NCBI GenBank assembly: GCA_018896875.1
Contig: JAHILT010000038.1
Location: forward strand, 1-52,172
Reading direction: 5' to 3'
DNA from: Patescibacteria group bacterium
GTDB taxonomy: Bacteria; Patescibacteriota; Minisyncoccia; UBA6257; 02-FULL-45-10c
DNA length: 52,172 bases
Below the pieces are notes generated by a model that was given only the letters and a program-made list of their open reading frames with translations, was not told the DNA's origin and searched no databases. Every line of letters begins with the position of its first letter. Within the stretch, counting starts at the first letter, position 1. The translations under genes and the position numbers were made by a program. Below are positions 8,404 through 50,399 of the stretch, piece after piece.

Positions 8404-8690
8404 TGCCGCGGGGGTGAATCGAACACCCAACGCCAGCCTCTTCCGAAGCTATTTGGACTATCTCATCTTCCTTAATTCAGGAAGCCGGGCGCTAATGCAA
8501 GATTATTGTTGGGACTCACCTGCTAGTCTCTACACCTTCTCCGCCACTTAAACCCTGCGGAGCTCGGCTCGGGATTGTCAAATACAAGATATAGTTGATT
8601 TTCCCCGAATTCACCCGGTTATTCAATCTGTATTACTACAGAAGGCCCCAAAGAATTTAGGGCTGCGCTCTACCATTGAGCTACCGCGGC
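8404..8690 (-). tRNA. tRNA-Phe(GAA) interrupted by a group I intron
   Basis: Exons GCCGCGGTAGCTCAATGGTAGAGCGCAGCCCT and GAAGAGGCTGGCGTTGGGTGTTCGATTCACCCCCGCGGCA make a full cloverleaf; anticodon loop CTGAAGA; A73. Confidence 0.85.
8444..8658 (-). mobile_element. Group I intron, ~215 nt, no internal ORF
   Basis: GACAATCCCGAGCC, GGTGTAGAGACTAGCAGG and GATGAGATAGTCC match group I core elements (P3/P7/S region); GCCCU|AAA pairs with GGGGC in a P1-like helix; terminal G. Confidence 0.88.
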
Positions 8691-9477: not shown

Positions 9478-9942
9478 TTATCGTATTAGAAGCTCTATGA
9501 TAATCCCGTTAAACAACATATGTAAAATTATGGCTCCTGCCAGTCCAAAAATTAAAAACCTTTTTCTCGCCAATCCTGCAAATACCATCACTAAAACCGT
9601 TATAATGTGCATTGGCATTGTCCATAAAAATCTTTGCCAGAAAATACTGAAATCGCCAAGCTGAAAAATTTGATTAAGATATAAAAAATTCTCTGATACC
9701 CCGAATAAAAAACCAAAAACTGCCGCACCAGCCAGTTTAAATTTAAATGAAGGTAATTTCAAAATCAAAAAAAACACTATCAACGCTTTCGCTATCTCCT
9801 CAACAATCTCGGAATAATTAGTAATTTTTACAATCGGAATTAAAATTATTGGCAAAACCAAACCGGCAACAATTAAAAAAATACCATAAATAGCTATATT
9901 AAATAGCAAAATATCGTTTTTAATTTTTAATTTCTTGAACAT
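9478..9942 (-). CDS. Polytopic membrane protein, PrsW-family protease-like
   Basis: EIVEEIAKALIVFF, GFLFGVSENFLY, MPMHIITVLVMV; start at MFKKLKIKND preferred over the track start. Confidence 0.65.
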   Translation of the reverse strand: MFKKLKIKNDILLFNIAIYGIFLIVAGLVLPIILIPIVKITNYSEIVEEIAKALIVFFLILKLPSFKFKLAGAAVFGFLFGVSENFLYLNQIFQLGDFSIFWQRFLWTMPMHIITVLVMVFAGLARKRFLIFGLAGAIILHMLFNGIIIELLIR

Positions 9943-12900
9943 AATCTTTAAATACCCAGCCACTTTTACCTTTAGGAATAGTGATGTAATACCAACCTGA
10001 CCCGTCAATATTATCTTTTTCGCTAGTATATTCATACTGTTCATCCGGATAAACTCTAGCTATTATTTCTCCTAACAGTGAAGCCTCATCCCTAACATTA
10101 AGCCAATTGGTCGGAGTATTTAAAATTTTAAGTTTGGGATTTGATTGCTCACTGAAAACCATTTCTACTCTAGTGGCAGTTTCGCTGTTCGGCGAAACGC
10201 TATGAGGCACGACATTTTCCTGATTAACTGGCGCTATGGCTGGCATTTCCCTTTCAAATGTTGTTGTGCGACTACTAAATAAAACTGGCGCAAATTTAAT
10301 TACTAATATTCCTAAAATTATTATTAGTCCAACAATCATAATCCGCGCTAAAATCTTTTTCCACGGCAGACGCCAACCCCCTGACAATCTAGAAGTAGTC
10401 AAAGACATTCCTGCCCCGATTTTATCAGTAATATTAGTTATAGACTTTAGAATATTATTATCTTCATTTTTTTTATTTTTTACTTTCTTGCCCATTCGTT
10501 CAAAAATTTCTTTCCTGTCCATTCCCATTACTGCTGCTGCCATTAAAGTTTGATGACGCCACATAGCGAAAATAATAACTGCCAGCAAGCCAAAGCCAAA
10601 AACAATAGATAAAATAATTCCCCAAGTAGCAAAAGTCTGAATACCACCTACCTTGCCAATCATACCCTGTGAAGCCCCTGATTGAACTACTAAATCCTTC
10701 ATTTTTTCCAAATTTCTTTTTACTCCCGCCATTTTCTCTTCATTGGTTCGATGAGCCACAATATGGTCTTGAGGCGTTCTATAACCTTCTTTCTGATTCA
10801 ATAAAATAATATTTAAAATAACTTCGTTTTCATTTTTCAAAAGCGTTCCTTGGGCTTCATATTGAGTTTTTTTCAATGACTCAAATAAAGTTTCCGCTTG
10901 TTTTTTCAAAGACTCAATTTCGGCTTCATCAAAAATCCAGATGTCTTTAATTTCCACTTTCTTGGTTATTGATTGTCCCGCATCTAAAGCAACATTGCCC
11001 CAAACATAATAAGTAGCCGCTGAAGAATCATAATCAATAGATAATCCATTCAAATCCATAATATGTTCAGGCTTAACTTCAATCGGCAGATATGATTTAA
11101 ACTTTAAAGTCTTGATTTCCGCCAGAGGATTAGTGATTAGAAAATTGAACACAACAGAATCAAAAGTCATCCAAGTTTCCACAATCGGCTCGGTAATGGT
11201 CTGCTCCACTATCTTCCGAGTAACGGACGAAATCGCGCGTAAATCAGTTAATTTATTTTTCATTTCCTGTAAGTCAGCGCTATTAACTTTGGAAATATCC
11301 AAAAGCGATCGAAAAGCCGGAGATGAAGGATCTATTGTCTCTCCTAAAAGAGAAATTACATTATTTAATAAGGCCGAGGTATTAGCAACTTCTTTGTAAA
11401 GAGGTTGACTTAACTGACCAGGCAAAACACCAATCCAATTTTTTATCAACTGCATATCCTCGTAAGCGGTTTTGGTCTTACCATAAGCGTTCAAATCATT
11501 TTGAACTTCTGAAAGTTTGTTATAAACCGAATTCAAACTCACTTCCGCTACACCACCGCCTCCGCCACTAGAAATTACTTCTTCATCTTCTTCAACCGCA
11601 GTAAATGTCTGAGATGCACCTGATGCTTCAGTACCGAAATAAACCACTAATTTAAACCAATAATCGCCTGTGTCTGGAACAGTGGCATTCAAAGTTGTAT
11701 CCCAATCCTCGCCAGTTAAAATATATTTTGCAGCAGAAGAATAAAATACATCATTACCCCCACCACAAGCATTGTCTTCTGCGGAAACCACACACCATTC
11801 ATATTGATATTCATAGCTAGCCGCGCCCTCATTAGAAATAGTTACATTTGCCGCAATACTAGGCACACTCAAATCACTCATTGAATTGATAAGCACTTGA
11901 GCTGGCGAACCCTCCACTTCCCAATAATCCTGGCGAGTTATCGCCAAAGCCCCTCCTAAGTCAACCGAAACCACAGTTTCCCATGAACCACTGGTAGAAT
12001 CTGAAGGCACGCTGTAAGTATATTCATAAATACCAGTAGAAAGTTTAGTCATTATACTGGTAGTAGCTGTAGCTCGCACTGAGTCATATAAAATAATGCT
12101 CGGACTACTAACTGCGTCAGCTGACTGGCTTTCATGATTCAAAATCGTTAATTTCGCCCTATAAGTATTGCCTGTTAAAACTTCGCCCATATCAGATAAC
12201 TCAACTGTATAATTTAATTGCTGGGATGAACGGATGTTGTCAATTACTGTTTTAGCCCCGCTAATATCGCTAACAATATCAGCCGCTGAAGATGCACCCC
12301 ATTTTGCCACAATTGCATCCACATTATCATCAACTGTCTGTAAGTTAGTCAGTAAAGTGTCAGTATTAGTATCAATAATATCAATTTTACCATCCACTGT
12401 TTGAAGTAAAGAATATGTGGTATTCACAGTTGATTGAATATCCGTCACTTTGGTCTGAATATCTGTCGTTTTGGTCTGAATATCTTCAACTCGTGTTCTT
12501 GAAGTTGCCTGCGCCGTTTCATGTTCTGCTAATTGCTCCTCAACATAAACATTTTGTTTAACAATAGTAAAAGCGTCACTATTTGCTGGCGCCGAAGTCA
12601 AAGCAGGAGAAAGAGTAATGGTTTTACTTGTCCCATCATAATTAGAAATCCGTCTTGTCTGCCCATCTAAATTGCCCGAGGTAAAAGTCAAAACCGCATT
12701 ATTATAAAAATTATCAGTAGCGTTAATTAAAGCTGTAATAAAAGAAGTGGTAGTAGGCGAAACATCGTCAACCGTTGATTGAGTAACAACCATTGCCCCG
12801 ATTAAAATATCTAAATTAGAACTTACTGTGTTGAGCTTATTCATAACAGTGGAAGATGCGTTTTCCACTTGGACGCCTACAGTAGTAATTTTTCCGGATA

Positions 12901-15562
12901 AAGTAGATGAAGCGCTCTCAACTTGAGTGCCAACCGTAGTTAAGCTTGATTGCGAACCGCGAGAAGACACGGTCGTATCAAGATTGGTGGTTATGGTTGA
13001 TTGAGTGGAACTCACATCGGCCGCAATCGTTCGTACTTCAAAATTTGAAGCTCCATATCCTAATTTACCAGAATATGTTGCTGTAACTTCATACAAATAA
13101 CTTCCACTTGTTGATGGTATATTATAAGAGTAGCGATAAATACCATTAGAGTCGGCTATATAATTCATTGCCCCGCCATCCACTAACTTCGCGCCTGCCG
13201 GATCATAAATATTAATGATAGCAGTGGCATCGTTAAGAGGAGCTCCACTAGCAAAGTTAATCACCTGAACGTCAATTTTTACGACATCCCCTTGATCAAC
13301 AGTAGTATTGCCGAATACTGGCCGAACCTCAACCGAAGCAGAAGAAATATTAACATCAAAATAAGTCGCTGTTGAAGACGCAGACCACTGACCTACGGAA
13401 TCTTTATATTTTACTATCCAATAATAAGTATTGAGATTACTTAGACTTCCTGCTTGCACGGCACGAGAAGTTTCTGCCGAAGGTGTCTCACCCGAATCAT
13501 AAGTCGGACTAGAAAAATCGGCGTTATCGTCAACCACCCATCTGCTAGCTGTGTGTGTATGCCCAGTTTGCTCATCTGAAAATGCAGAAGCTGAAAGAAG
13601 CGGCGTTAAAGTTACGACAGTTGCGGCATTTATCGGCTCAGAATTAACCGGTGTGGCAATTATATTAGTGGTAAAACTTGTTGCCGTTGAAGACGCTGAC
13701 CACAATTCAGCATCTTTATAAGCCACCCGCCAATAATAAGTTGTATTGTGAGCTAATTCAGTTTTGCCGGACAAATTATTGGCAAAAGTACCATTAGTAG
13801 AATTCACAACCGTGCTAGTTTCAACAGCGCCGGCAGTCCGTGTCCATTCAGGTAAAGAAAAATCAGCATTATCATCTAATTCCCACCGGGCGTTGGACTG
13901 CAAATCGCTATTGGAATCAAAAAAAGCCGAGCCGGTTAAAGTCGGCAATAAAGACACTGTGGTTGAAGCATTAGCGGGTTGAGAATTGATCGGGGTGTTG
14001 GGCGGATAATTTGCCGTATAATTAATTGTTACACTGCTCGTATCTGCCGACAATGTGCTTGAAGCAGTATCAAAAAAAGCTTTGTATTGAAAATAGCGAT
14101 TATTGCCAAGACCCGACAAAGAAAGAGATGGGGTCGCGCTGGTGGAAGTATTATAAAGTTCTGAATAATAATCAGTGGTAGAAGCCGCCGGACCAACCCA
14201 ACTTTCCCCTGAACAAGCCACGTCATCGCAATCACGAACTTGGAATTTAAGCTTCAAAGCGCCTCGTTTGTAATTGTTAAGAATTTCTGTGGCTGATAAA
14301 TCCCGATTATAGATCGCGACTTCATCCATTACGCCATTGAAAAGTTCCGCTCCAGTTTCTCCGTCTTTACCAATAATAAGTTTAAAATCATTAGGTGTTG
14401 GGTTTGTTGAAGTAACCGCACTAAACTCTTCAACCCCATCAATATAAAATTTAAAAGTTGCGCCATTATAAACAGCTACTGTATGATACCAAGTGTTTAT
14501 ATTTAATAGTTTGTCGTCGCTATAGACGGTCCCAGCATGAACCGCGTTGAGAATCATATTAGCGCCACTCAGTGAAAGATGAGTTTGATAATTAATTGTT
14601 CCTCCGCTTCTTTTTGCAAAAATACCAAAATAATCACTTGTCGAATTGAATTTAAACCAAACTTCTAAGCTATAGTTTCCCGAAATATCCAAGCTCGCTG
14701 AATCAAGCACTCCCACATAATCATTCACCCCATCAAAACTCAAAGCGGTATTAAATTTTCCTGTCGTAGATTTATTTAATCCATCACTGCCGGTATAAAG
14801 AATTCCGTTGTTTGCACTGCCAGAATTATCGGTAATTGTCCCTCCTTCCTGCGCATTAGCGCCGGCTTCATTCAAGTGCCACAAACCCACATTACCGGTC
14901 ATATCAGCGTTACCAGTTGAATAGCCGGATTCTATTACGGCATTATTCGGAAGCTCTTTATAAAATGGCTGGCTTGGCGTCCAGCTTAATGTATTCCAAG
15001 TTGTGCTGGCTGTGGTATCTTTAACGCTTGAAATATAATTTCCTGTAAGAGCGATTTTGCCGGCGGCGTTTAAATCCAGCCAACTGCTTGCGCCATTCCA
15101 CTGGGTATCGGAATATGTTCCGGCATCAAACGTAGCTTGTGAATTATCAACAAAAGTTGAAGATGCGGCTAAAATTTTAACCGCTTGATTCAAAGAATAA
15201 ATTCCAGCCGAACCCAAAGTTAAAGTAAAAACCATCCAAGCCGCAATTGCCATCCGAAGCGGCTTAAATTGCGGGTGCTTACGCAAAGTTTTAAAATTAT
15301 CCCATAAATTAGGATGTCCGATCAAAAAATCCGGCACTATAAGCTTTATTGCCCATTTCAAAAAGTGTTTTGATTTATAATATTTTTTTACTATATGATG
15401 CCGATTACTAGTATGTATAGCAAAATATTCCTCTGTTTCTTTTTTTAACAAAAATTGCTTCTCCCACCGAGGAGTACGCGGTTTGATAATTATATCCCTT
15501 ATCAAATTATTAAATTTCATTTGACGCAAGGGTTTATTGTTAGGTTTTTGTCTTTCCATCAT
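9920..15562 (-). CDS. Giant cell-surface protein (1880 aa): LamG/ConA-like domain, Ig/Fn3-like repeats, coiled coil, TM helices, C-terminal SH3-like domain
   Basis: LamG-like VGLWHLNE...FDGVNDYVGV...YSLEVWFKF...YNRDLSATEI; two repeats ending YYWxVxYKDxxxxWSASSTAT; C-terminal LNVRDEASLLGEIIARV...GWVFKDYV. Confidence 0.85.
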   Translation of the reverse strand: MMERQKPNNKPLRQMKFNNLIRDIIIKPRTPRWEKQFLLKKETEEYFAIHTSNRHHIVKKYYKSKHFLKWAIKLIVPDFLIGHPNLWDNFKTLRKHPQFKPLRMAIAAWMVFTLTLGSAGIYSLNQAVKILAASSTFVDNSQATFDAGTYSDTQWNGASSWLDLNAAGKIALTGNYISSVKDTTASTTWNTLSWTPSQPFYKELPNNAVIESGYSTGNADMTGNVGLWHLNEAGANAQEGGTITDNSGSANNGILYTGSDGLNKSTTGKFNTALSFDGVNDYVGVLDSASLDISGNYSLEVWFKFNSTSDYFGIFAKRSGGTINYQTHLSLSGANMILNAVHAGTVYSDDKLLNINTWYHTVAVYNGATFKFYIDGVEEFSAVTSTNPTPNDFKLIIGKDGETGAELFNGVMDEVAIYNRDLSATEILNNYKRGALKLKFQVRDCDDVACSGESWVGPAASTTDYYSELYNTSTSATPSLSLSGLGNNRYFQYKAFFDTASSTLSADTSSVTINYTANYPPNTPINSQPANASTTVSLLPTLTGSAFFDSNSDLQSNARWELDDNADFSLPEWTRTAGAVETSTVVNSTNGTFANNLSGKTELAHNTTYYWRVAYKDAELWSASSTATSFTTNIIATPVNSEPINAATVVTLTPLLSASAFSDEQTGHTHTASRWVVDDNADFSSPTYDSGETPSAETSRAVQAGSLSNLNTYYWIVKYKDSVGQWSASSTATYFDVNISSASVEVRPVFGNTTVDQGDVVKIDVQVINFASGAPLNDATAIINIYDPAGAKLVDGGAMNYIADSNGIYRYSYNIPSTSGSYLYEVTATYSGKLGYGASNFEVRTIAADVSSTQSTITTNLDTTVSSRGSQSSLTTVGTQVESASSTLSGKITTVGVQVENASSTVMNKLNTVSSNLDILIGAMVVTQSTVDDVSPTTTSFITALINATDNFYNNAVLTFTSGNLDGQTRRISNYDGTSKTITLSPALTSAPANSDAFTIVKQNVYVEEQLAEHETAQATSRTRVEDIQTKTTDIQTKVTDIQSTVNTTYSLLQTVDGKIDIIDTNTDTLLTNLQTVDDNVDAIVAKWGASSAADIVSDISGAKTVIDNIRSSQQLNYTVELSDMGEVLTGNTYRAKLTILNHESQSADAVSSPSIILYDSVRATATTSIMTKLSTGIYEYTYSVPSDSTSGSWETVVSVDLGGALAITRQDYWEVEGSPAQVLINSMSDLSVPSIAANVTISNEGAASYEYQYEWCVVSAEDNACGGGNDVFYSSAAKYILTGEDWDTTLNATVPDTGDYWFKLVVYFGTEASGASQTFTAVEEDEEVISSGGGGGVAEVSLNSVYNKLSEVQNDLNAYGKTKTAYEDMQLIKNWIGVLPGQLSQPLYKEVANTSALLNNVISLLGETIDPSSPAFRSLLDISKVNSADLQEMKNKLTDLRAISSVTRKIVEQTITEPIVETWMTFDSVVFNFLITNPLAEIKTLKFKSYLPIEVKPEHIMDLNGLSIDYDSSAATYYVWGNVALDAGQSITKKVEIKDIWIFDEAEIESLKKQAETLFESLKKTQYEAQGTLLKNENEVILNIILLNQKEGYRTPQDHIVAHRTNEEKMAGVKRNLEKMKDLVVQSGASQGMIGKVGGIQTFATWGIILSIVFGFGLLAVIIFAMWRHQTLMAAAVMGMDRKEIFERMGKKVKNKKNEDNNILKSITNITDKIGAGMSLTTSRLSGGWRLPWKKILARIMIVGLIIILGILVIKFAPVLFSSRTTTFEREMPAIAPVNQENVVPHSVSPNSETATRVEMVFSEQSNPKLKILNTPTNWLNVRDEASLLGEIIARVYPDEQYEYTSEKDNIDGSGWYYITIPKGKSGWVFKDYVQEIKN

Positions 15563-28743: not shown

Positions 28744-30093
28744 TTATTTTAGTAATTTTTTTAATTCTTCAATATCATTTTCAATAAGAATAGACTTCTT
28801 TTCTTTTGCGATCGTTTCTTTAAGTTTCTCTGGTATTTCTATTTCTTTGCCAATTATCGGCTCTATGCTGTCTTTAAATTTAACTGGATGCGCAGTGCTC
28901 AATACGATAATCGGATTTTTTATTCCAGATTTTTCCGCCCCCCTCATTGCCACTGCCGTATGCGTATCAATCAAATATCCAGTTTTTTCGAATATAGACT
29001 TAATGGTCTCCGCAGTTTCAGCTTCATCCACTGTTTCTCCAATAATATCCAATCTCATCGCCTCAACGCTATTTTTATACATATCTAGCATCCTAGCAAA
29101 GTTAGATGGGTTTCCTACGTTCATAGAATTAGATATTGCTGGTGCTACTTTTTCTGAAGAACGAGGAGTATAAATTCCCGTGGCAAGATACTCTGGTACA
29201 ACATCATTAATATTACACGATGCCACAAATTTTTTCACTGGTAAACCAATTCTTTTAGCCATAAGCCCAGCAGTAAGATTCCCAAAATTTCCACTAGGCA
29301 CGGAGAGCGCTATTTCTTTTTCTTTCTCTGTTTTTCTAAGCAAATTATAGCCGTGAAAATAATAAAACATTTGCGGTAAAAGTCTGCCGAAATTAATAGA
29401 ATTTGCCGAAGAAAACTCACCCTTTCCATTAATCTCTTTGTCTCTTAATATCTGTTTCGCCAACTTTTGACAATCGTCAAATACGCCCTTAACTTCTATT
29501 GCCGTAATATTTCCGCCAAAAGTCGTAAGTTGTTTTTCCTGAAGATTACTCACTTTTCCAGATGGATAAAGAATATACACCTTCAAATTAGGAACACCAT
29601 AAAAACCTGCTGCCACAGCACTACCTGTATCCCCAGAAGTAGCAACAATAATTTTTAATTCTTGTTTGTTTTCTTTAAGAAAATACTCCATAGCACGAGA
29701 CATAAAACGAGCGCCAAAATCCTTAAAAGCCATCGTTGGTCCATGAAACAGCTCTTGTATATAAAGATTATCGCTAATTTTAACTAATGGAGTTGGAGAT
29801 CCTTCGACAAGCTCAGGACAAGACCCTTTATTTTCTATAAGGAAGGCTTCTTTACTAAACGCATCGGCAATAATCTCTTTTAATGCTAATTCTGGAATAT
29901 CATCAATAAATAATTTGCTGATTTCCAAAGCAATATCCGAAAAAGTTTTTTCTGGCAATTCTTCTAAGAATTTATCGCTTAAAATAGGAAAAGACTCTGG
30001 TATATATAGCCCGCCATCAGGCGCCAGTCCGTCAAGAAGAACGTCTTTGAAAGATTTTCCGATAACCCCCTTATTGGTACTGTAGTATTTCAT
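28744..30093 (-). CDS. thrC: Threonine synthase
   Basis: KYYSTN, ELFHGPTMAFKDFGARF, SGDTGSAVAAGF, VPSGNFGN. Confidence 0.95.
   Translation of the reverse strand: MKYYSTNKGVIGKSFKDVLLDGLAPDGGLYIPESFPILSDKFLEELPEKTFSDIALEISKLFIDDIPELALKEIIADAFSKEAFLIENKGSCPELVEGSPTPLVKISDNLYIQELFHGPTMAFKDFGARFMSRAMEYFLKENKQELKIIVATSGDTGSAVAAGFYGVPNLKVYILYPSGKVSNLQEKQLTTFGGNITAIEVKGVFDDCQKLAKQILRDKEINGKGEFSSANSINFGRLLPQMFYYFHGYNLLRKTEKEKEIALSVPSGNFGNLTAGLMAKRIGLPVKKFVASCNINDVVPEYLATGIYTPRSSEKVAPAISNSMNVGNPSNFARMLDMYKNSVEAMRLDIIGETVDEAETAETIKSIFEKTGYLIDTHTAVAMRGAEKSGIKNPIIVLSTAHPVKFKDSIEPIIGKEIEIPEKLKETIAKEKKSILIENDIEELKKLLK
29799..29823. repeat. Palindromic repeat inserted in the thrC reading frame (encodes SCPELVEGS)
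   Basis: TCCTTCGACAAGCTCAGGACAAG; variant CTCCTTCGGCGGGCTCAGGACAAG at 22866..22889. Confidence 0.7.
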
Positions 30094-30139: not shown

Positions 30140-30649
30140 TTATGCTAACTCTAAAATTTTCTCAACCAAATCAATTTCGGTTAAATTCTCAATATTAATT
30201 GTATGGTTGGCAATTTTTTTATAAACTAAACTTCTTTCTTTAAAAAGTTTTTTAAGACCCTTCTCTCTTAAACCAATTATTCCACCCTTAATAACTCTTT
30301 GCTTTAATCTTTTTTGTATCTCCCTTAGGGTTGTTTCTATGTAAACAACCTTGGTTTCTTTTTTGATTTTTCCCATAGCCTCTGGAGAATACATAATGCT
30401 TCCTCCTGGAGAGAAAACGGTATTTTTTTTAAAAGCTAACTCTAGGGTATATTTATTTTCTAAATCTAATAATTTCCGTTCTCCATCTTGCTCTAAAATT
30501 TCATCATAACTTCTACCCGTTTTTTCTTTAATTAAGTCGTCTAAATCAATAAAATCCCAACCTAATTTATTGGCTAGTATTTTCCCAATCGTGGACTTCC
30601 CCGAGGTAGGCATTCCAACTAAAGTTATAACTTGTTTATTTTTTTTCAT
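30140..30649 (-). CDS. Shikimate-kinase-family P-loop kinase; candidate homoserine kinase by context
   Basis: GMPTSGKSTIGKILANKLGWDFIDLDDLIKEKTGRS; sits between asd and thrC. Confidence 0.85.
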   Translation of the reverse strand: MKKNKQVITLVGMPTSGKSTIGKILANKLGWDFIDLDDLIKEKTGRSYDEILEQDGERKLLDLENKYTLELAFKKNTVFSPGGSIMYSPEAMGKIKKETKVVYIETTLREIQKRLKQRVIKGGIIGLREKGLKKLFKERSLVYKKIANHTINIENLTEIDLVEKILELA

Positions 30650-30682: not shown

Positions 30683-31789
30683 TTAGAAATTTCTTGATAG
30701 GTATCCTTTTTTATACAATAACTCAGCCACTAAAATAGCACCACCAGCTGCTCCTCTAATAGTATTATGAGAAAGGGCAATAAATTTCCATCCCGAATCT
30801 TTGTCTTCGCGAAATCTACCACAAGTAATACCCATGCCATTTTCGTAATCACGGTCTAGCTTAGTTTGTGGCCTATTGTTTTCAGAAAAATATTTAATAA
30901 ATTTCTTAGGGGCAGAAGGTAAATTTAATTTAGCCAACGAATTTTTGAAATTAATAATCGCTTTCTTTATCTGTAAAAAAGTTGGTTTCTTTTTAAATTT
31001 AACTGACACACTAGCCATATGACCATCAGAAACCGAAACGCGAATACAAGTAGCTGAAATATTTATATTTTTAGCCAACTCTATTTTTTTATTCTTTATA
31101 ATCCCCAAAATTTTCAACGGTTCTTTTTCAGTTTTTTCTTCTTCTCCTCCTATAAATGGAATACAATTATCCACCATCTCCGGCCACGATTCAAAAGTTT
31201 TTCCAGCACCAGAAATTGCTTGCAATGTAGTCACAGAAACAATCTGAGGATTAAATTGCTTAAGGGCGTAAATAACTGGAAGATAAGACTGCAAAGAGCA
31301 ATTTGGCTTAACGACTAATAATCCTTTTTTCCAACCACGTTTTTTTCGTTGAATACTAACAAGAGATAAATGATTTTCGTTTATTTCCGGCATAATCATC
31401 GGAACATCCTCTGTCCATCTATGAGCAGAGTTATTAGAAACTACAGCTATGCCTGCTGAAGCATAATGTTCTTCTACTTCTTTTATTTTTTTCTTACTCA
31501 TATCAATAGCAGAAAAAACTAAATCTACATTTTTTACAATTTCATTAAAATCTCCTTCTACTGCTTTAACTGTTATTTTTTTTATTTTTTTGGGAATAGA
31601 ATTTTTCATGCACCATCTTCCCCTTACCGCTTCCTCATATTTTTTTCCGGCCGATTGTGAAGAGGCAGCTAAAACAACCACGTCAAACCATGGGTGTTTT
31701 TCTAAAAGAGAAATAAATCTCTGTCCCACCATTCCGGTCGCACCTAAAATACCAACTCTTAATTTCTTTTTTAATTTTTTATTTTTCAT
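30683..31789 (-). CDS. asd: Aspartate-semialdehyde dehydrogenase
   Basis: GILGATGMVGQRFISLLEKHPWF, VKPNCSLQSYLPVI, SGAGKTFESW. Confidence 0.94.
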   Translation of the reverse strand: MKNKKLKKKLRVGILGATGMVGQRFISLLEKHPWFDVVVLAASSQSAGKKYEEAVRGRWCMKNSIPKKIKKITVKAVEGDFNEIVKNVDLVFSAIDMSKKKIKEVEEHYASAGIAVVSNNSAHRWTEDVPMIMPEINENHLSLVSIQRKKRGWKKGLLVVKPNCSLQSYLPVIYALKQFNPQIVSVTTLQAISGAGKTFESWPEMVDNCIPFIGGEEEKTEKEPLKILGIIKNKKIELAKNINISATCIRVSVSDGHMASVSVKFKKKPTFLQIKKAIINFKNSLAKLNLPSAPKKFIKYFSENNRPQTKLDRDYENGMGITCGRFREDKDSGWKFIALSHNTIRGAAGGAILVAELLYKKGYLSRNF

Positions 31790-31919: not shown

Positions 31920-34343
31920 TTATATTTTTAATATATCTGAAAGAACTCCACTGGCTGTAACTTCTGCGCCTGCCCCAGGCCCTTGTATAATTAAAGGACA
32001 ATTTGGATATCGTTTTGTATAAAAAACAAAAATATTATCGGCTCCTCTTACAAATGCTAGTGGATTATCTTTAGATATTGATTCTAAGCAAGCCGAGGCT
32101 TTTCCATTCTCAAGTTTAGCTACGTAACGTAAAACTTTTTTGTCTTTCTGCACTTCTTCCAAAAGATTTTTAAAATGAAAATCATATTCTTTTAATTTTT
32201 CCATAAAACTACCTAGCTCTTTTATCTTTCTAAGTTTTTTTATTACCAAATTTTCTATTTTTACATCTGAAATATTCATATCCAGCCCTATCTCTCTAGC
32301 TAGTATCAAAAGTTTTCGTCCAACATCTAATCCATTTAAATCTTCTCTAGGATCTGGCTCTGTATATCCTAATGTTTTAGCCTTAATCACAATATCGCTG
32401 AAATTATCATTTTCCCCAAAACTATTTAATATATAACTTAAGGTTCCAGAAAAAATACCTTCAATCTTTACAATCTTATCTCCACTAGAAACTAAATCTT
32501 TTAAGGTAGATAATAATGGAAGTCCAGCGCCGACATTAGTTTCATATCCGAATTTTTTGTTATTTTTCGCTAAAATATCACGAAGTTCTTTGTATTTTTT
32601 AATCGGCAAAACATTAAATTTTTTATTAGGAGACACTATATTAAATCCAGCGTGCGCCATTTCAATATATTTGTTTGTAACAAAATCACTAGCCGTACAA
32701 TCAACGAATATTTTATTAGAAATATCCATATTTTTAATTTTTCTCATCCATTCTTTAAAATCAGCTAGGCTTCCTTTCTCTAGCGCTTTTTTCCAGTCAT
32801 TTAATTTAATTCCGCTTTCATCTAACAACATTTTTTTACTATTTATAATTCCGCACACCTTTAATAAATTATTATCCAATTCACAAATTTGTCTCAATAA
32901 CATTCCTCCGATATTACCAACTCCAACCAAAAAAATATTTTTAATGCCATTAAACACGAATCGATCATGTATTAAATTTAACGCTCTAATTTTGTCTTTG
33001 GTATTAACGGTCAAAGAGATACTTCTTTCTGACCCTCCTTGTGCAATAGCTGTAACGCTAATTTTATTGTCGCCTAAAATTCCAAATAAATTTCCAGAGA
33101 TACCGGGTGTTCCTCGCATTCCATCTCCCACAATAGAAATAACAACTTGATTAGGAATAAACTCTACGCTTACTGATTCATCTTTAGTTTCTTTTTTAAA
33201 CTCTACTCTTAAACTACGCAATGTTCTTTTTAGTTCTATCGTCTTTATGGCCAAACAAATTGTGTGTTCAGAAGATGCCTGAGAAATTAAAATAACATTT
33301 GATTTAGCTTTTTTAGTTGCTTCAAAAACTCTCGCCGCGCTACCAGGTATGCCCGCAAGACTTACTCCTTTAACAATAATCAAAGAAATATCTTCCATTA
33401 AAATCACCCCCTTAACCAATGGGTTTTGCGTAGCTGTTTTTTTTACTATCAAAGAACCATTCCCTAACGAGTTGAATGTGTTTTTTATTAAAATAGGTAT
33501 GCCTTTTTTAATCGCTGGCAACATAGTGGCTGGATGTATTACTTTGGCTCCAAAATAAGCCATCTCTACGGCTTCTTCATAGCTTATTTCGTTCAAAACA
33601 ACGGCGTTTTTAACTAATCTAGGGTCAGCACTCATAATCCCATCCACATCAGTCCAAATTTCTATAATTTTTACACCAAGAGCGACCCCCAAAATAGCTG
33701 CTGAGTAATCCGACCCTCCTCTACCTAAAGTAGTTGTTTCTCCTTTTTGAGTAGAACTTAGAAACCCTGTAATAATAGGAATTCCGACTTTATTTTTTGA
33801 TTTGCTAAAAAATTTTTTAATTAATTTATTTGTAGAATTAAAATTAACAGAAGCATTTATAAAAATATCATCTGTTTTAATAATTTCCCGGGCATCAACA
33901 AAATAACTTTTTTCTAAAAACTCGCTTTTTATATAATTAGCAATTATAAAAGCCGAAAATCTTTCACCAAAACTAGCTATAATATCCATTTCTTTGGGCA
34001 ACGCTTCTTTTCTTTTGGATATATTTTCTAAGATAATTGATAATTCATTTATCAAAGTTTCTACATATTTCAAAATTATTTTTTGATTAGCTTTTTTCTT
34101 GATTAATTTTTTTATAAATTTTATATGATGATTTTTTATTATTTCAACTTCTTTTTTACTATCTTTTCCCGCCACAGCTAATGAGGCACATTTTAAAAGA
34201 TGATCTGTAATTCCTTGAAAAGCCGAAACAACCACGGCTATATCATTTTTTTTAGACGCGTCTAAAATTATTTCGCTAGCCATTTTGACTCTTTCAGGAG
34301 TTCCTAGTGATGATCCGCCAAATTTTAATATTTTTGTAATCAT
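31920..34343 (-). CDS. thrA: Bifunctional aspartokinase/homoserine dehydrogenase
   Basis: KFGGSSLGTPERVKMA, GRGGSDYSAAILG, ACT region, VGVGNIGGMLLRQI, ETNVGAGLPLL. Confidence 0.95.
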   Translation of the reverse strand: MITKILKFGGSSLGTPERVKMASEIILDASKKNDIAVVVSAFQGITDHLLKCASLAVAGKDSKKEVEIIKNHHIKFIKKLIKKKANQKIILKYVETLINELSIILENISKRKEALPKEMDIIASFGERFSAFIIANYIKSEFLEKSYFVDAREIIKTDDIFINASVNFNSTNKLIKKFFSKSKNKVGIPIITGFLSSTQKGETTTLGRGGSDYSAAILGVALGVKIIEIWTDVDGIMSADPRLVKNAVVLNEISYEEAVEMAYFGAKVIHPATMLPAIKKGIPILIKNTFNSLGNGSLIVKKTATQNPLVKGVILMEDISLIIVKGVSLAGIPGSAARVFEATKKAKSNVILISQASSEHTICLAIKTIELKRTLRSLRVEFKKETKDESVSVEFIPNQVVISIVGDGMRGTPGISGNLFGILGDNKISVTAIAQGGSERSISLTVNTKDKIRALNLIHDRFVFNGIKNIFLVGVGNIGGMLLRQICELDNNLLKVCGIINSKKMLLDESGIKLNDWKKALEKGSLADFKEWMRKIKNMDISNKIFVDCTASDFVTNKYIEMAHAGFNIVSPNKKFNVLPIKKYKELRDILAKNNKKFGYETNVGAGLPLLSTLKDLVSSGDKIVKIEGIFSGTLSYILNSFGENDNFSDIVIKAKTLGYTEPDPREDLNGLDVGRKLLILAREIGLDMNISDVKIENLVIKKLRKIKELGSFMEKLKEYDFHFKNLLEEVQKDKKVLRYVAKLENGKASACLESISKDNPLAFVRGADNIFVFYTKRYPNCPLIIQGPGAGAEVTASGVLSDILKI

Positions 34344-34352
34344 ATAAACAAA

Positions 34353-34371
34353 AACCTCGATTTTTCGAGGT
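34353..34371 (-). terminator. Attenuator terminator ACCTCGAAAAATCGAGGT + TTTTGTTT
   Basis: Stem plus U tract on the minus strand between leader peptide and thrA. Confidence 0.88.
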
Positions 34372-34400
34372 CGTAATTAATTAATATTTTAAATTTATAA

Positions 34401-34460: not shown

Positions 34461-34528
34461 TATCTTTATAATACCAAACGATTTTTTATCGTCAACCCCA
34501 TTTAAAATTATATTTATAAAAAGAAAAA

Positions 34529-34590: not shown

Positions 34591-35229
34591 CTATCTCTTA
34601 ACAACTTTAGACACTATATCAACGAGCCCATATTCCTTGGCCTCTTCAGCAGACATATAATAATTACGTTCCATGTCTTTGTGTACCTCATCAAATGTCT
34701 TTCCTGTATGATCAGCTATAATTTGCGTTAAGATTCTCTTACTTATCTGCATCTCCTTAGCTTCAATTTCTATATCAGTCGCCTGACCAGAAATACCTCC
34801 ACCCATAATTAAAGGCTGGTGAATCATAATACGAGAGTTAGGTAAAGCAATACGCCTTCCTTTTGTCCCAGCCGCAAGTATTACGGCACCAAAAGACATC
34901 GCCATACCCATACAAATAGTAGAGATAGGGCTTTTTATATACTGCATAGTATCATAGACAGCCAGCCCCGCAGTTACCAAGCCACCAGGAGAATTAATAT
35001 GAAGACTAATGTCTTTTTCTTCGTCCTGCTGATCTAGAAAGAGAAGCTGGGCAATTAACAAGTCGGCAGAACTCGTAGTAAATACCCCATCTGGGTCACC
35101 TACAAAAATAATACGCTGACTCAAAAAATAAGAATAAATATCACGAGTCATTACAGCACCTAGATCTTTTGTAGTGACCATAGGAATTACACCCGTATCC
35201 AAGATTTTTCCATTTTTCTCGTTTTTCAT
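34591..35229 (-). CDS. clpP: ATP-dependent Clp protease proteolytic subunit (paralog 1)
   Basis: HINSPGGLVTAGLAVYDTMQYI, GMAMSFGAVILAAG, RIMIHQP. Confidence 0.94.
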   Translation of the reverse strand: MKNEKNGKILDTGVIPMVTTKDLGAVMTRDIYSYFLSQRIIFVGDPDGVFTTSSADLLIAQLLFLDQQDEEKDISLHINSPGGLVTAGLAVYDTMQYIKSPISTICMGMAMSFGAVILAAGTKGRRIALPNSRIMIHQPLIMGGGISGQATDIEIEAKEMQISKRILTQIIADHTGKTFDEVHKDMERNYYMSAEEAKEYGLVDIVSKVVKR

Positions 35230-36584: not shown

Positions 36585-36711
36585 ATCCCGCACATAACGA
36601 AGACTATTCTTAGTGGGATAATAGCTTAGAAAAAATAATAAGTCGTATAAATTAACATAAAATAACAAAGTCAGAGAAAATCTTATTTCCAGTCTTTGTT
36701 ATGTGTGGGAT
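36585..36711 (+). promoter_or_regulatory. Inverted-repeat leader, copy C (21-bp stem with two G-U pairs, ends in clpP start codon)
   Basis: ATCCCGCACATAACGAAGACT / AGTCTTTGTTATGTGTGGGAT. Confidence 0.88.
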
Positions 36712-37312
36712 GAACGAAAAAAACGAATATTTAATTCCAACAGTTATAGAAAAAAGTTCTGCAGGAGAACGAGCTTATGATATTTATTCTCGTCTTTTAA
36801 AAGAAAGGATAATATTTTTAGCTGGACCAATAAATGACGCTATTGCTAATACGGTTGTGGCTCAATTACTTTTTTTAGAACATGAAAATCCTAAAAAAGA
36901 TATTAAGCTTTACATTAATTCTCCTGGTGGATCTATCACTGCAGGACTAGCTATTTACGATACAATGCAATATGTTAAATGTGATGTTTCTACTATTTGT
37001 ATCGGCATAGCAGCTTCTATGGGAGCAGTTCTTTTAGCTGCTGGATCTAAGGGGAAAAGATTTGCGCTCCCTAATTCTGAAGTATTGATTCACCAAGTAA
37101 TGGTAGAAGGGATTGGAGGACAGGCCACGGAAATTGAAATAAGCGCCAAACATATTTTAAAAATGAGAGAAAGACTTAATCAATTATTAGTCAAACATAC
37201 AAACCGTCCTTTATTAAAGATACAAAGAGACACAGAAAGAGATTACTGGCTTACTGCTCAAGAAGCTAAAGAATATAATTTAGTAGATAAGATAATTAAA
37301 ACAAAAAATTAG
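36710..37312 (+). CDS. clpP: ATP-dependent Clp protease proteolytic subunit (paralog 2)
   Basis: [41 protein letters not shown]. Confidence 0.94.
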
Positions 37313-46754: not shown

Positions 46755-49700
46755 TTAAAAACAAATCGCTCCAGCGATATTATCGCCAGAATTTAAATTC
46801 ATAATTCTTACGCCTTGTGTTGCCCTACCAGCCAATCGCACACTAGAAAGTTGTATTCTAATTATTTGACCCTTGATAGATAATACTAGAAGTTCCCGTT
46901 CTTCATTCACTAATATTGAAGCAACAATATTTCCAGTTTTTGAATTAATTTTAGCTGTTTTAATACCAGAGCCACCACGAGCCTGCACTTTATATTGTGA
47001 AATTTTAGTTCTCTTGCCAAAACCACTAGTTGTAACAGTTAAAATGCTAGTGTCTGGGCTAAATTTTTCTTCAATAATAGCCAAAGAAATAAGATTGTCT
47101 CCTTTTTTCAAACGAATCCCCTTCACGCCAGAGGCTGTTCTCCCCATAGGTCTAATTTGAGACTCTTTAAATCTAATTGCTTGCCCTAAAGCTGTAGCTA
47201 AAATAATTTGATCATTACCAGAAGAAAGTTTAACCCATTGTAATGCATCTCCTTTTTTAAGATTAATAGCCCTAATCCCTGTTTTTCTTACATTAATAAA
47301 ATCAGACAAAGCTGTTTTTTTAATAATTCCATTTTGAGTTGCCATCACTAAAAATTTTGATGCTTCCTTCTTATCATCAGAATAGCAAACAACTGATGCT
47401 ATTTTTTCTTCTACGGGAATTTCTAAAAAATTATGAAGAGATCTTCCTTTGGCTATTCGGCTAGCTTCTGGAATTTCATACACCTTAGTTTGAAATACTC
47501 TGCCTTCTTCTGTAAAAAATAAAATATTATCGTGAGTGTTAGTAAATATAAACCTATTTAAGAAATCTTCTTCGGCAACCTGAGATCCAATTAATCCCTT
47601 ACCTCCACGCTTCTGAGAGCGAAAACTTGATGGCGCCACACGCTTAATATAGCCATTATCAGACATAGAAATTATTGTTTCTTCTTTAGGAACAAGATCT
47701 TCTTCGCTAAAATCTTCTAGTCCAGAAGATATAACTTTTGTTTTTCTTTCATCGCCATACTTTTCTTTCATCTCTAAAAGCTCTTTTTTAATAAGAGATA
47801 AAATCTTTTTAGGACTACTTAATAAGGATTTTAAACTTTCAATTATTTTCTTTTTTTCTTCCAATTCATCTTTAATTTTTTTATGTTCTAAGGAAGCCAA
47901 CGCCTGAAGTTTCATTTCTAAAATAGCGCTAGCTTGAATAGCAGAAAATTTAAACTTAATAACTAAGTTTTTATGAGCTGCTTCTTTGTCAGCTGATTTT
48001 TTAATAAGAGCAATAATCTTGTCTATACTTCCTAATGCTTTGTTTAGTCCCATTAAAATATGGGCTCTCTCTTCTGCTTTTTTTAAATCAAATTCTGCTC
48101 TTCTTTTTGTTACTTCTTTTCTATGATTAATATAAGCAACTAAAATTTCTTTAATAGAAAGAACTTGTGGTTGAATGCCGTCAATCAATGCCACCATATT
48201 AAAATTAAAATTCTTTTGAAGGTCGGTAAATTTATAAAGTTGATTTAAAATTTTCTGCGGATTAGCATCGTTTTTAAGATCAATTACTACAGAGATACCA
48301 TCCTTGTCAGATTCATCGCGTACATCCTTTATCCCCTGAATTTTTTTACTAGTTACAAGCTCAGCTATTTTTATTATAAATTCAGACTTATTAACCTGGT
48401 AAGGAATTTCTGTGATTTCAATATAATGTCTTTTAGCAGATTCTTTTACTTCCGCTCTTCCACGCATAGTAACACCTCCTCGTCCAGTCGTATAAGCTTG
48501 TTTGATGGCATTTTTATCATATATGATTCCACCAGTAGGAAAATCTGGACCTTTTATAAACTCCATTAATTCCTCAGAACTGGTTTTGGGATTATCTATA
48601 ATTTCCCCTATAGCATCAATAATTTCTCCTAAATTATGAGGAGGAATATTAGTAGCCATTCCTACAGCAATGCCTACTGCTCCATTAAGTAAAAGATTAG
48701 GAATCTTGGCTGGCAAAACCTTTGGCTCTGTTCTAGTCTCGTCATAATTAGGCGCCCAATTTACCGTTTCTCTTTCAATATCAAGCAAAAGATTCTCAGA
48801 GATACTAGATAGTTTAGCTTCGGTATAACGCATAGCTGCCGCAGAATCTCCATCTACTGAATTATGAACAAAAATCCCCGCAGCCAAAGCAAAATTATGA
48901 CTTTTTTCTATTGTTAAATCATAAACATCCTCTCTCTGATTTAAAAACTCCACTTTTATAACTTTGTGATTTTTATTTAAGGCATTAAGTAAAATCTTTT
49001 TATCATTATTATAATATTTTTGTATACCGGTTTGCCAAGAAGTGGCGCGTCCATAATTATAAATTATGCATCTTTTCTGCTCATATAAATCTTGATTTAA
49101 AATTTTATATTCTTTTAAAACTTCTCTACAAATCTTGAGAAACTTAACCTTGCCAGTATTATTAGAAATTCTTTTTTTATTCGCACTAACGATTTTTTCA
49201 TGAAATAGCTTTCTGTAAACTGGATCTTGCCATAGTCTTTTAAATGTTTGTGTCGCTTGTTTAGAAATTTCAATTCTTCTTTCTGGATGATTTTGAATAT
49301 ATTTTTTATTAACCACACTTAAAAATTTGCTCATTTTTATTCTGTATTCAGAATTTTGCCAATTTTTCAAATTTCGTTCAGACATTCTTTTGGCATATTC
49401 GGCCCTATTAACGGAATTAGACCAAAACTTTCTCCTTCCTTCGGCAATCTTTTCTCTATATTCTTTATTTTTATGCAAATTAGCAGCCTGCTCATAATGA
49501 ACATGCCAGTGTTCTCCCCAGTCTATTCTTTGTATATTATCAGGACTATTATTAAGTTTATTAAAATCTAGATGATGCCTTACTCTCCCTTCTTTTTTTG
49601 AATATTTTTTGATGGTCAAATTATAATTATCAGCTAAATGATGCGACGGAACCCATTCGTCAATTTTGTTTTGATATATTAAATTATAACCCTCGCGATT

Positions 49701-50399
49701 CAGACGATCAGTCTTTTCCGACAATTTCTCATATAAGGGCATTAATGATTCGCCTGGATTTAAATCTTTCGCCTCCTTATAGACACCACTCTTTGTCATA
49801 AATAAATGATTAAGGGTACACTTAATTTCTTCTTTGTTGTCCAGAATAACTTTCATGATTTCAGCATCTTTTCTAGTCAGTCTTGGATTTTTAATTTCAG
49901 CAACCGAAATTAATCCCACCGAATTAACCGTGTATGTATAATTCTTTTTCCCCTCTTTGTATTCTTTGATTAAATCTTCAAAGCTTAAATCGCGGCCGTC
50001 AACCAGTTTAACTTTTGTGTCCTTCGTAAAACAGCCAAAATTTCCTTGGCCTCGTACTAATGGATAACGTAAAGAAAAATCCTGGGCCATACGAACCATA
50101 GCCTCATAAACAGAACTATCGCCATGAGGATGATATTTACCAAGAACTTCTCCAACTACGCGCGCTGATTTCATAAACTTGGCAGAAGAAGATATACCCA
50201 TATTCCACATTGCCCACAATATTCTTCTCTGCACAGGCTTAAGCCCATCTCTCACATCCGGAAGAGCTCTTGAGACTATAACCGACATTGCATAATCTAA
50301 ATAACACTCTTTTAATTCAGCTATAATTTCTTGATTTTGTATCTTGGAATCAAAACCTCCAGATTTATTTATTTTTTTAGGATCTTTTTCTTTTTTCAT
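46755..50399 (-). CDS. gyrA: DNA gyrase subunit A precursor containing an intein
   Basis: [69 protein letters not shown]-terminal beta-pinwheel. Confidence 0.96.
48861..50033 (-). mobile_element. GyrA intein, 391 aa, with HNH-type homing endonuclease-like region
   Basis: Starts [13 protein letters not shown], ends [12 protein letters not shown], +1 Ser; [29 protein letters not shown]; splits GQGNFG^SVDGDS. Confidence 0.95.

Follow-up and report, generated by a model that had tools for sequence, protein, structure and literature searches.

Gene order and conservation of the threonine operon

Which enzyme phosphorylates homoserine in a Patescibacteria genome whose threonine operon carries, at the place of the homoserine kinase, a gene of the shikimate kinase (SK) family? 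We addressed this question using the whole 52,172-nt stretch of contig JAHILT010000038.1 (assembly GCA_018896875.1), called here the window. The initial annotation had read the order thrA(AK-HSD)-asd-kinase-thrC on the minus strand, and this order was confirmed by the ORF coordinates together with curated family matches (Table 1). The kinase ORF is intact, begins with ATG and encodes 169 aa. The intergenic gaps, taken in the order of transcription from thrA to thrC, measure 130, 33 and 46 nt.

The same thrA-asd-kinase-thrC order is present in a congener (genome G228, locus L061), which also shares the flanking genes with the window. The identity between the two operons is 65 % for the kinase, 70 % for thrC, 79 % for asd and 67 % for thrA, and the common neighbours encode a solute-binding protein, a SIS protein, RNase J and ClpP. 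A third Patescibacteria genome (L081) has a kinase-thrC pair with the same neighbours. As the arrangement is conserved in the congener and, for the kinase-thrC part, in L081, it represents neither chance nor a binning artefact. Two ClpP paralogues in the window (34591-35229, minus strand, and 36701-37312, plus strand) flank a trigger-factor gene beside the thr operon, and the congener also has two ClpP-like genes beside its operon.

Table 1. Positions of the operon genes and of the predicted leader elements in the window
Feature	Position	Strand	Evidence
Promoter-like TTGACG-16-TATTAT close upstream of the leader, with TG preceding the second hexamer	34468..34495	-	consensus match only, 10/12
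thrL-like leader peptide MFRIISTTTTTTLSPLLRS, 19 residues, 2 Ile and 6 consecutive Thr codons	34401..34460	-	sequence
Putative attenuator segment 2, antiterminator 5′ arm, overlaps leader stop codon	34398..34412	-	15-bp pairing with segment 3
Putative attenuator segment 3, antiterminator 3′ arm, overlaps terminator 5′ arm	34365..34379	-	pairing/folding
Predicted intrinsic terminator hairpin GACCTCGAAAAATCGAGGTT with T tail	34353..34372	-	-10.9 kcal/mol; ends 9 nt before thrA start
thrA, bifunctional aspartate kinase/homoserine dehydrogenase (homoserine-producing)	31920..34343	-	NF006959 893 bits, above cut-off
asd, aspartate-semialdehyde dehydrogenase	30683..31789	-	TIGR00978 357 bits, above cut-off
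Proposed SK-fold homoserine kinase	30140..30649	-	Pfam SKI 111 bits; NF040667 123 bits (below cut-off); AlphaFold model; residues
thrC, threonine synthase (substrate O-phosphohomoserine)	28744..30093	-	TIGR00260 292 bits, above cut-off

Elsewhere in the window, a Group I intron (RF00028, 8434-8668, 69.6 bits) lies inside an apparent tRNA gene left uncalled by ARAGORN (8404-8690, minus strand). GyrA (46755-50399, minus strand, 1214 aa) contains an intein (Pfam Intein_splicing, residues 137-513) with an apparent HNH-type insert seen by eye, and the minus-strand ORF at 9920-15562 encodes a surface-type protein of 1880 aa with laminin-G-like, Ig-like and SH3 domains.

Fold and residues of the kinase

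The AlphaFold model of the kinase, based on an alignment of 39 sequences, reached a mean pLDDT of 94, and its best fold matches were the structures of M. tuberculosis shikimate kinase with TM up to 0.85. Assignment to Pfam SKI agrees with the fold. The initial annotation had noted an SK-type Walker A and DLD region. Walker A (GMPTSGKST, G12-T20, with K18) is intact, and so is D37, the counterpart of M. tuberculosis D34. The counterpart of R136, R139, is also kept. The alignment to M. tuberculosis AroK proposed earlier pairs exactly as given (DGEQEFRRIEE with DGERKLLDLEN and LSLGGGAV with FSPGGSIM), and the residue table shows the changes deduced from it, i.e. Phe57-Arg58 to Leu60-Leu61 and the third Gly of GGG to Ser84. 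Other residues that we marked are Y87 and the lid K121-G122-G123, next to L61 at the SK Arg58 position and the triplet G82-G83-S84.

In the M. tuberculosis enzyme, shikimate binding has been linked to two arginines, Arg58 and Arg136 (PMC3646032). Both Arg58 and GGG are present in 23/23 reference SKs, whereas the window kinase has L61 and GGS. In summary of the comparison with AroK/AroL of M. tuberculosis and E. coli, the proteins are alike in fold (TM about 0.85), Walker A and the equivalents of D34 and R136, but differ in R58 (L61), GGG (GGS) and the lid (GG instead of RP), and the window genome differs in that the aromatic pathway was not seen.

Missing steps in the genome

The assembly of the window genome (G000) has 0.79 Mb in 89 contigs and is estimated to be 97 % complete with 5 % contamination. 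Its closest relatives with a name belong to Patescibacteria / Ca. Paceibacterota. The genome-wide family search recovered a single SKI-family gene. Neither a GHMP kinase (PF00288) nor chorismate synthase was found in the window genome, and each of them was found in 14/14 control genomes. In this genome the homoserine kinase search covered the GHMP type, and the shikimate-pathway search covered chorismate synthase (aroC) besides the SKI family. The lack of a GHMP homoserine kinase, originally noticed in the operon, therefore extends to the whole 97 %-complete genome, and the proposed search for thrB elsewhere returned no gene of the GHMP type. From the accompanying proposal to look for aroA, aroB, aroC and aroE, the aroC part was carried out; as chorismate synthase was not found, a complete pathway to chorismate can be excluded within the limits of the assembly. 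The combination of a thrB elsewhere with a full shikimate pathway, named at the outset as evidence against the assignment, was not encountered in the families searched. Among the ORFs of the window itself we saw no aromatic-pathway gene, in line with the earlier observation; this inspection was mostly by eye, except for the families scanned. In comparison with GHMP ThrB (TIGR00191), which is absent from this genome, the kinase is expected to catalyse the same reaction (ATP and homoserine) using an unrelated fold.

A characterised relative in Desulfovibrio

The top NCBIfam model for the window kinase is the homoserine kinase model NF040667, with 123.4 bits against a curated cut-off of 197; the best SK model scores 85. 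An SK-like homoserine kinase has been described in Desulfovibrio, where the gene DvMF_0971 was shown to complement a thrB deletion of E. coli (Price 2018, PMC5764234). The mutants in DvMF_0971 are rescued by threonine, and a separate SK gene of Desulfovibrio is essential (PMC5764234). Judging from its name (hom_kin_desulfo) and scope, NF040667 was probably built on this protein. Homoserine kinases with an SK fold have thus been known since DvMF_0971 was published in 2018, and the window kinase is a distant member of the same kind. The two share the SK fold, the role at the ThrB step, which is predicted for the window kinase, and the best family match, and GGSxxY with the RG lid is present in four proteins above the NF040667 cut-off. 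They differ in context: the window kinase lies inside a thr operon and its genome has no second SK, whereas the threonine genes of Desulfovibrio have scattered locus numbers and an SK is present in addition. In the open-access literature we found no further papers on the SK-like homoserine kinase family beyond Price 2018 and GapMind.

The GGSxxY clade and shikimate kinases

Our survey of SKI proteins covered 241 genomes from the class to which the window genome belongs. GGG kinases are confined to the three genomes that have chorismate synthase (G057, G120 and G193), where they adjoin aroC; the true SKs of the class adjoin aroC, aroA or aroE and keep both GGG and RP. Kinases with GGSxxY were found only in genomes without chorismate synthase (the window genome, G228, G141, G047, G195, G023 and G202), and NF040667 beats every SK model for them. 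The kinase of G141 is directly 3′ of thrC and in G047 thrC is some 4 kb away. In G195, G023 and G202 (L064, L065 and L066) the GGS kinase is present, and thrC and aroC were not detected; L064 is located near a contig end and L066 forms a very long branch.

The genome scan yielded 80 further loci, gathered by the pattern L[IV]GM[PA]xxGK and retained on similarity to the query, and GGS is present in all of them. The conservation of M13 and P14 is partly circular, as the loci were chosen by this pattern, but S84, Y87 and G123 lie outside it. Ser84 was found in 115/115 clade members and 0/23 SKs. Gly123 occurs in 114/115 members, with Pro in 23/23 SKs, and Tyr87 in about 95 % of the members (n = 115). 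The change from GGG to GGS is consequently the mark of a large clade and not a local oddity. The situation is different for Arg58, the loss of which had been emphasised in the initial annotation: it is real in the window kinase but less diagnostic than thought, as Arg at position 61 is kept in 26/115 clade members, compared with 23/23 SKs. The signature of the clade is GGSxxY with an RG[VI] lid, which reads KGG in the genus of the window. The clade spans Patescibacteria, Lachnospiraceae, Desulfobacterota, Marinobacter and methanogens, and its members are at present mostly named shikimate kinase. In Desulfobacterota, all four proteins above the NF040667 cut-off are of the GGSxxY type and all co-resident SKs have GGG.

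The split between the clade and SKs received support of 100/100 in the tree and 98 after removal of the diagnostic columns. The window kinase, with its GGSxxY and lid G, is on the same side of this split as the Desulfovibrio enzymes, and they are not its nearest neighbours in the tree. The window subclade possibly branches off first on the side of the SKs; such trees were not rejected (AU p 0.53 and 0.63). A sister relationship of the window clade to the Desulfovibrio enzymes was not found in the tree, though it was not rejected by the test either.

Longer P-loop kinases of 223 and 206 aa were noticed at L074 (4014-4685, minus strand, G114) and L076 (6887-7507, plus strand, G073). They overlap thrC or sit 10 nt away from it, and TTGS[IV]V[YH] replaces GGSxxY. 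At the threshold applied, NF040667 (39-45 bits) is their sole NCBIfam match, and Pfam SKI is borderline. They are possibly a second, more diverged type of homoserine kinase in Patescibacteria. P-loop proteins of G183 and G229 (L067 and L068) gave weak SKI matches and lack the motif.

A predicted threonine attenuator upstream of thrA

The region between clpP and thrA contains, on the minus strand, a leader peptide ORF whose run of at least six Thr codons is the only one in the window, with 0.0 expected in shuffles. Segments 2 and 3 (Table 1) pair with an energy of -20.3 kcal/mol as a duplex and -18.8 as a hairpin, and the antiterminator and terminator hairpins are mutually exclusive, which is the classical 2:3 / 3:4 design. 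Sites like the promoter-like element occur 29 times in the scanned region versus 25.8 expected. The congener has an analogous leader (L061, 11163-11275), MNKVVFTTTTTTTSP, with seven Thr codons, an imperfect antiterminator (-15.6) and a terminator (-11.7) that differ from those of the window in nucleotide sequence; the design has therefore been kept though the letters changed. The fold z-score is -4.8 for the window leader and -1.7 for the whole congener leader, i.e. the latter is not unusually stable.

The Rfam Thr_leader model (RF00506) gave sub-threshold matches in the window (13.3 bits versus the gathering threshold of 55, E 5.7) and at the corresponding position of the congener (13.2 bits). 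The leader resembles E. coli thrL in a peptide with a Thr run and Ile codons, a segment 2 that overlaps its stop codon, competing 2:3 and 3:4 hairpins and a terminator before thrA. It differs from thrL and RF00506 in sequence and phylum, and in the sub-threshold Rfam match. No reports of such an attenuator in this radiation were found in the open-access literature. The anatomy predicted for a thrL-type leader is present, and attenuation would be expected in vivo. As a thrL-type attenuator precedes thrA, the operon is tied to threonine synthesis by independent evidence.

GGS kinases outside Patescibacteria

The 30 genomes with the kinase that we searched for GHMP thrB span Patescibacteria, methanogens, Clostridia, Marinobacter, Desulfobacterota, Planctomycetota and others. 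None of the 30 had a GHMP thrB above the cut-off, versus 11/14 controls, and the function of the kinase outside Patescibacteria and Desulfovibrio is a reading that rests on these absences. Outside Patescibacteria, thr genes lie beside the kinase in 1/77 scanned loci (L095) and no recurrent thr neighbours were seen.

In Lachnospiraceae (n = 120 genomes), the scores of the clade profile are bimodal, with 88 genomes at 190-234 bits and SKs at 129 or lower. thrC is above the cut-off in 117/120 genomes and thrB in 1/120, the latter being a genome without a GGS kinase. TIGR02535, another proposed homoserine kinase, was found in 47/88 genomes with the GGS kinase and 9/32 without; we rejected it as a complementary partner, as the two co-occur. 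A further 22 genomes have neither the kinase nor thrB nor TIGR02535, and thrC is present in 20 of them. Given the overlap with TIGR02535 and these 22 genomes, the GGS family does not explain every case. The association of the kinase with thrC (Fisher p 0.17) is uninformative in this family, because thrC is nearly universal. In some Lachnospiraceae (L128, L138, L140, L150 and L151) a RidA-like gene, recognised by eye, is directly 5′ of the GGS kinase, which hints at amino-acid metabolism.

Methanosarcina (G244, G245) and Methanolobus (G247) have a GHMP-type archaeal shikimate kinase above the cut-off (TIGR01920) together with an SK-fold GGS kinase, and GHMP thrB above the cut-off was not found in these three genomes. 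If the assignment of the kinase is right, the shikimate and threonine pathways appear to have swapped kinase folds in Methanosarcinales. At L084, L085 and L088, belonging to Methanosarcina and Methanolobus, the GGS kinase adjoins a DUF711-like protein, and at L084 and L088 also an ACT-like protein (both recognised by eye).

Alternative explanations

Could the protein be an ordinary shikimate kinase that happens to sit in the thr operon? Its SK fold, its place in Pfam SKI and the retention of D37 and R139, corresponding to Asp34 and Arg136 of the shikimate pocket, would suit this explanation, but the protein has other residues in place of Arg58, the third Gly and the lid Pro, while true SKs of the same class keep GGG and RP and adjoin aroC, aroA or aroE. 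Moreover, chorismate synthase was not found in the genome and a threonine attenuator lies upstream of the operon, so we consider this explanation extremely improbable. A promiscuous or bifunctional homoserine kinase, which would also use another small hydroxyl acid or amino acid such as serine or scavenged shikimate, is very improbable. The operon context and the attenuator in the window genus speak against it, as does the separate GGG SK in the Desulfobacterota and Lachnospiraceae genomes checked, even if thrC was not detected in three of the Patescibacteria genomes with clade members and the members in Lachnospiraceae adjoin RidA, flavin reductase or DHH phosphatase rather than thr genes.

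A third explanation, in which the kinase is inactive and the operon a relic, either degenerating or acquired horizontally, has a nearly negligible probability. All four ORFs are intact, the catalytic residues are kept at 65 % identity to the congener, and the congener has the same order and chromosomal neighbours, which in the third genome accompany the kinase-thrC pair. The leader peptide and attenuator design were also kept despite the changed nucleotide sequence. These observations outweigh the reduced genome of this episymbiont-like lineage and the 5 % contamination estimate, which would fit a relic.

Proposed function of the kinase

We predict that the window protein is an SK-fold homoserine kinase, with a probability of about 0.9. 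This assessment combines the sequence, the predicted fold, the order of the genes, the gaps in the genome, the phylogeny and the pairing in the leader. The initial suggestion that the kinase fills the missing ThrB step is supported by the best match to NF040667, the genome gaps and the attenuator. In the proposed pathway, ThrA and Asd would provide homoserine, the kinase would transfer the γ-phosphate of ATP to its hydroxyl group, and ThrC would convert the resulting O-phosphohomoserine to threonine. We infer the substrate and the residue roles as follows. Walker A K18/S19 and D37, as the counterpart of M. tuberculosis D34, would serve phosphate transfer, and R139 (R136 in M. tuberculosis) would hold the homoserine carboxylate. 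The acceptor pocket would be remodelled relative to SKs by the loss of Arg58 and the changes of GGG to GGSxxY and of the lid RP to RG (KGG in the genus), with S84, Y87 and the missing Arg58 presumably narrowing it. A ribosome stalled at the leader Thr codons would leave segment 2 free to pair with segment 3, and transcription would enter thrA; without stalling the terminator would form, placing all four genes under the threonine attenuator.

Implications

Homoserine kinase is among the steps most often missing in genome-based predictions of amino-acid biosynthesis, and in GapMind ThrB was of low confidence in 29/148 prototrophs (PMC7311316). On balance, we favour a joint reading with three parts. 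The GGSxxY clade would be a general and widespread SK-fold homoserine kinase, accounting for much of the long-standing lack of ThrB in Lachnospiraceae, Desulfobacterota, Marinobacter, methanogens and Patescibacteria; Methanosarcinales would have exchanged folds (GHMP for shikimate, SK-fold for homoserine); and a thrL-type attenuator would work in Patescibacteria. To the known kind of enzyme our analysis adds the Patescibacteria operon with its attenuator and a residue signature, and it shows how broad the clade is. With a GGS-type motif that tells SK-fold homoserine kinases apart from true SKs, annotations would be corrected in gut Clostridia, sulfate reducers, methanogens and Patescibacteria, false auxotrophy calls would become fewer, and the "shikimate kinases" of genomes that lack the shikimate pathway would be explained. 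For the organism itself, the results suggest that this Patescibacterium makes its own threonine and regulates the synthesis by ribosome-mediated attenuation, which is unexpected for so reduced a genome.
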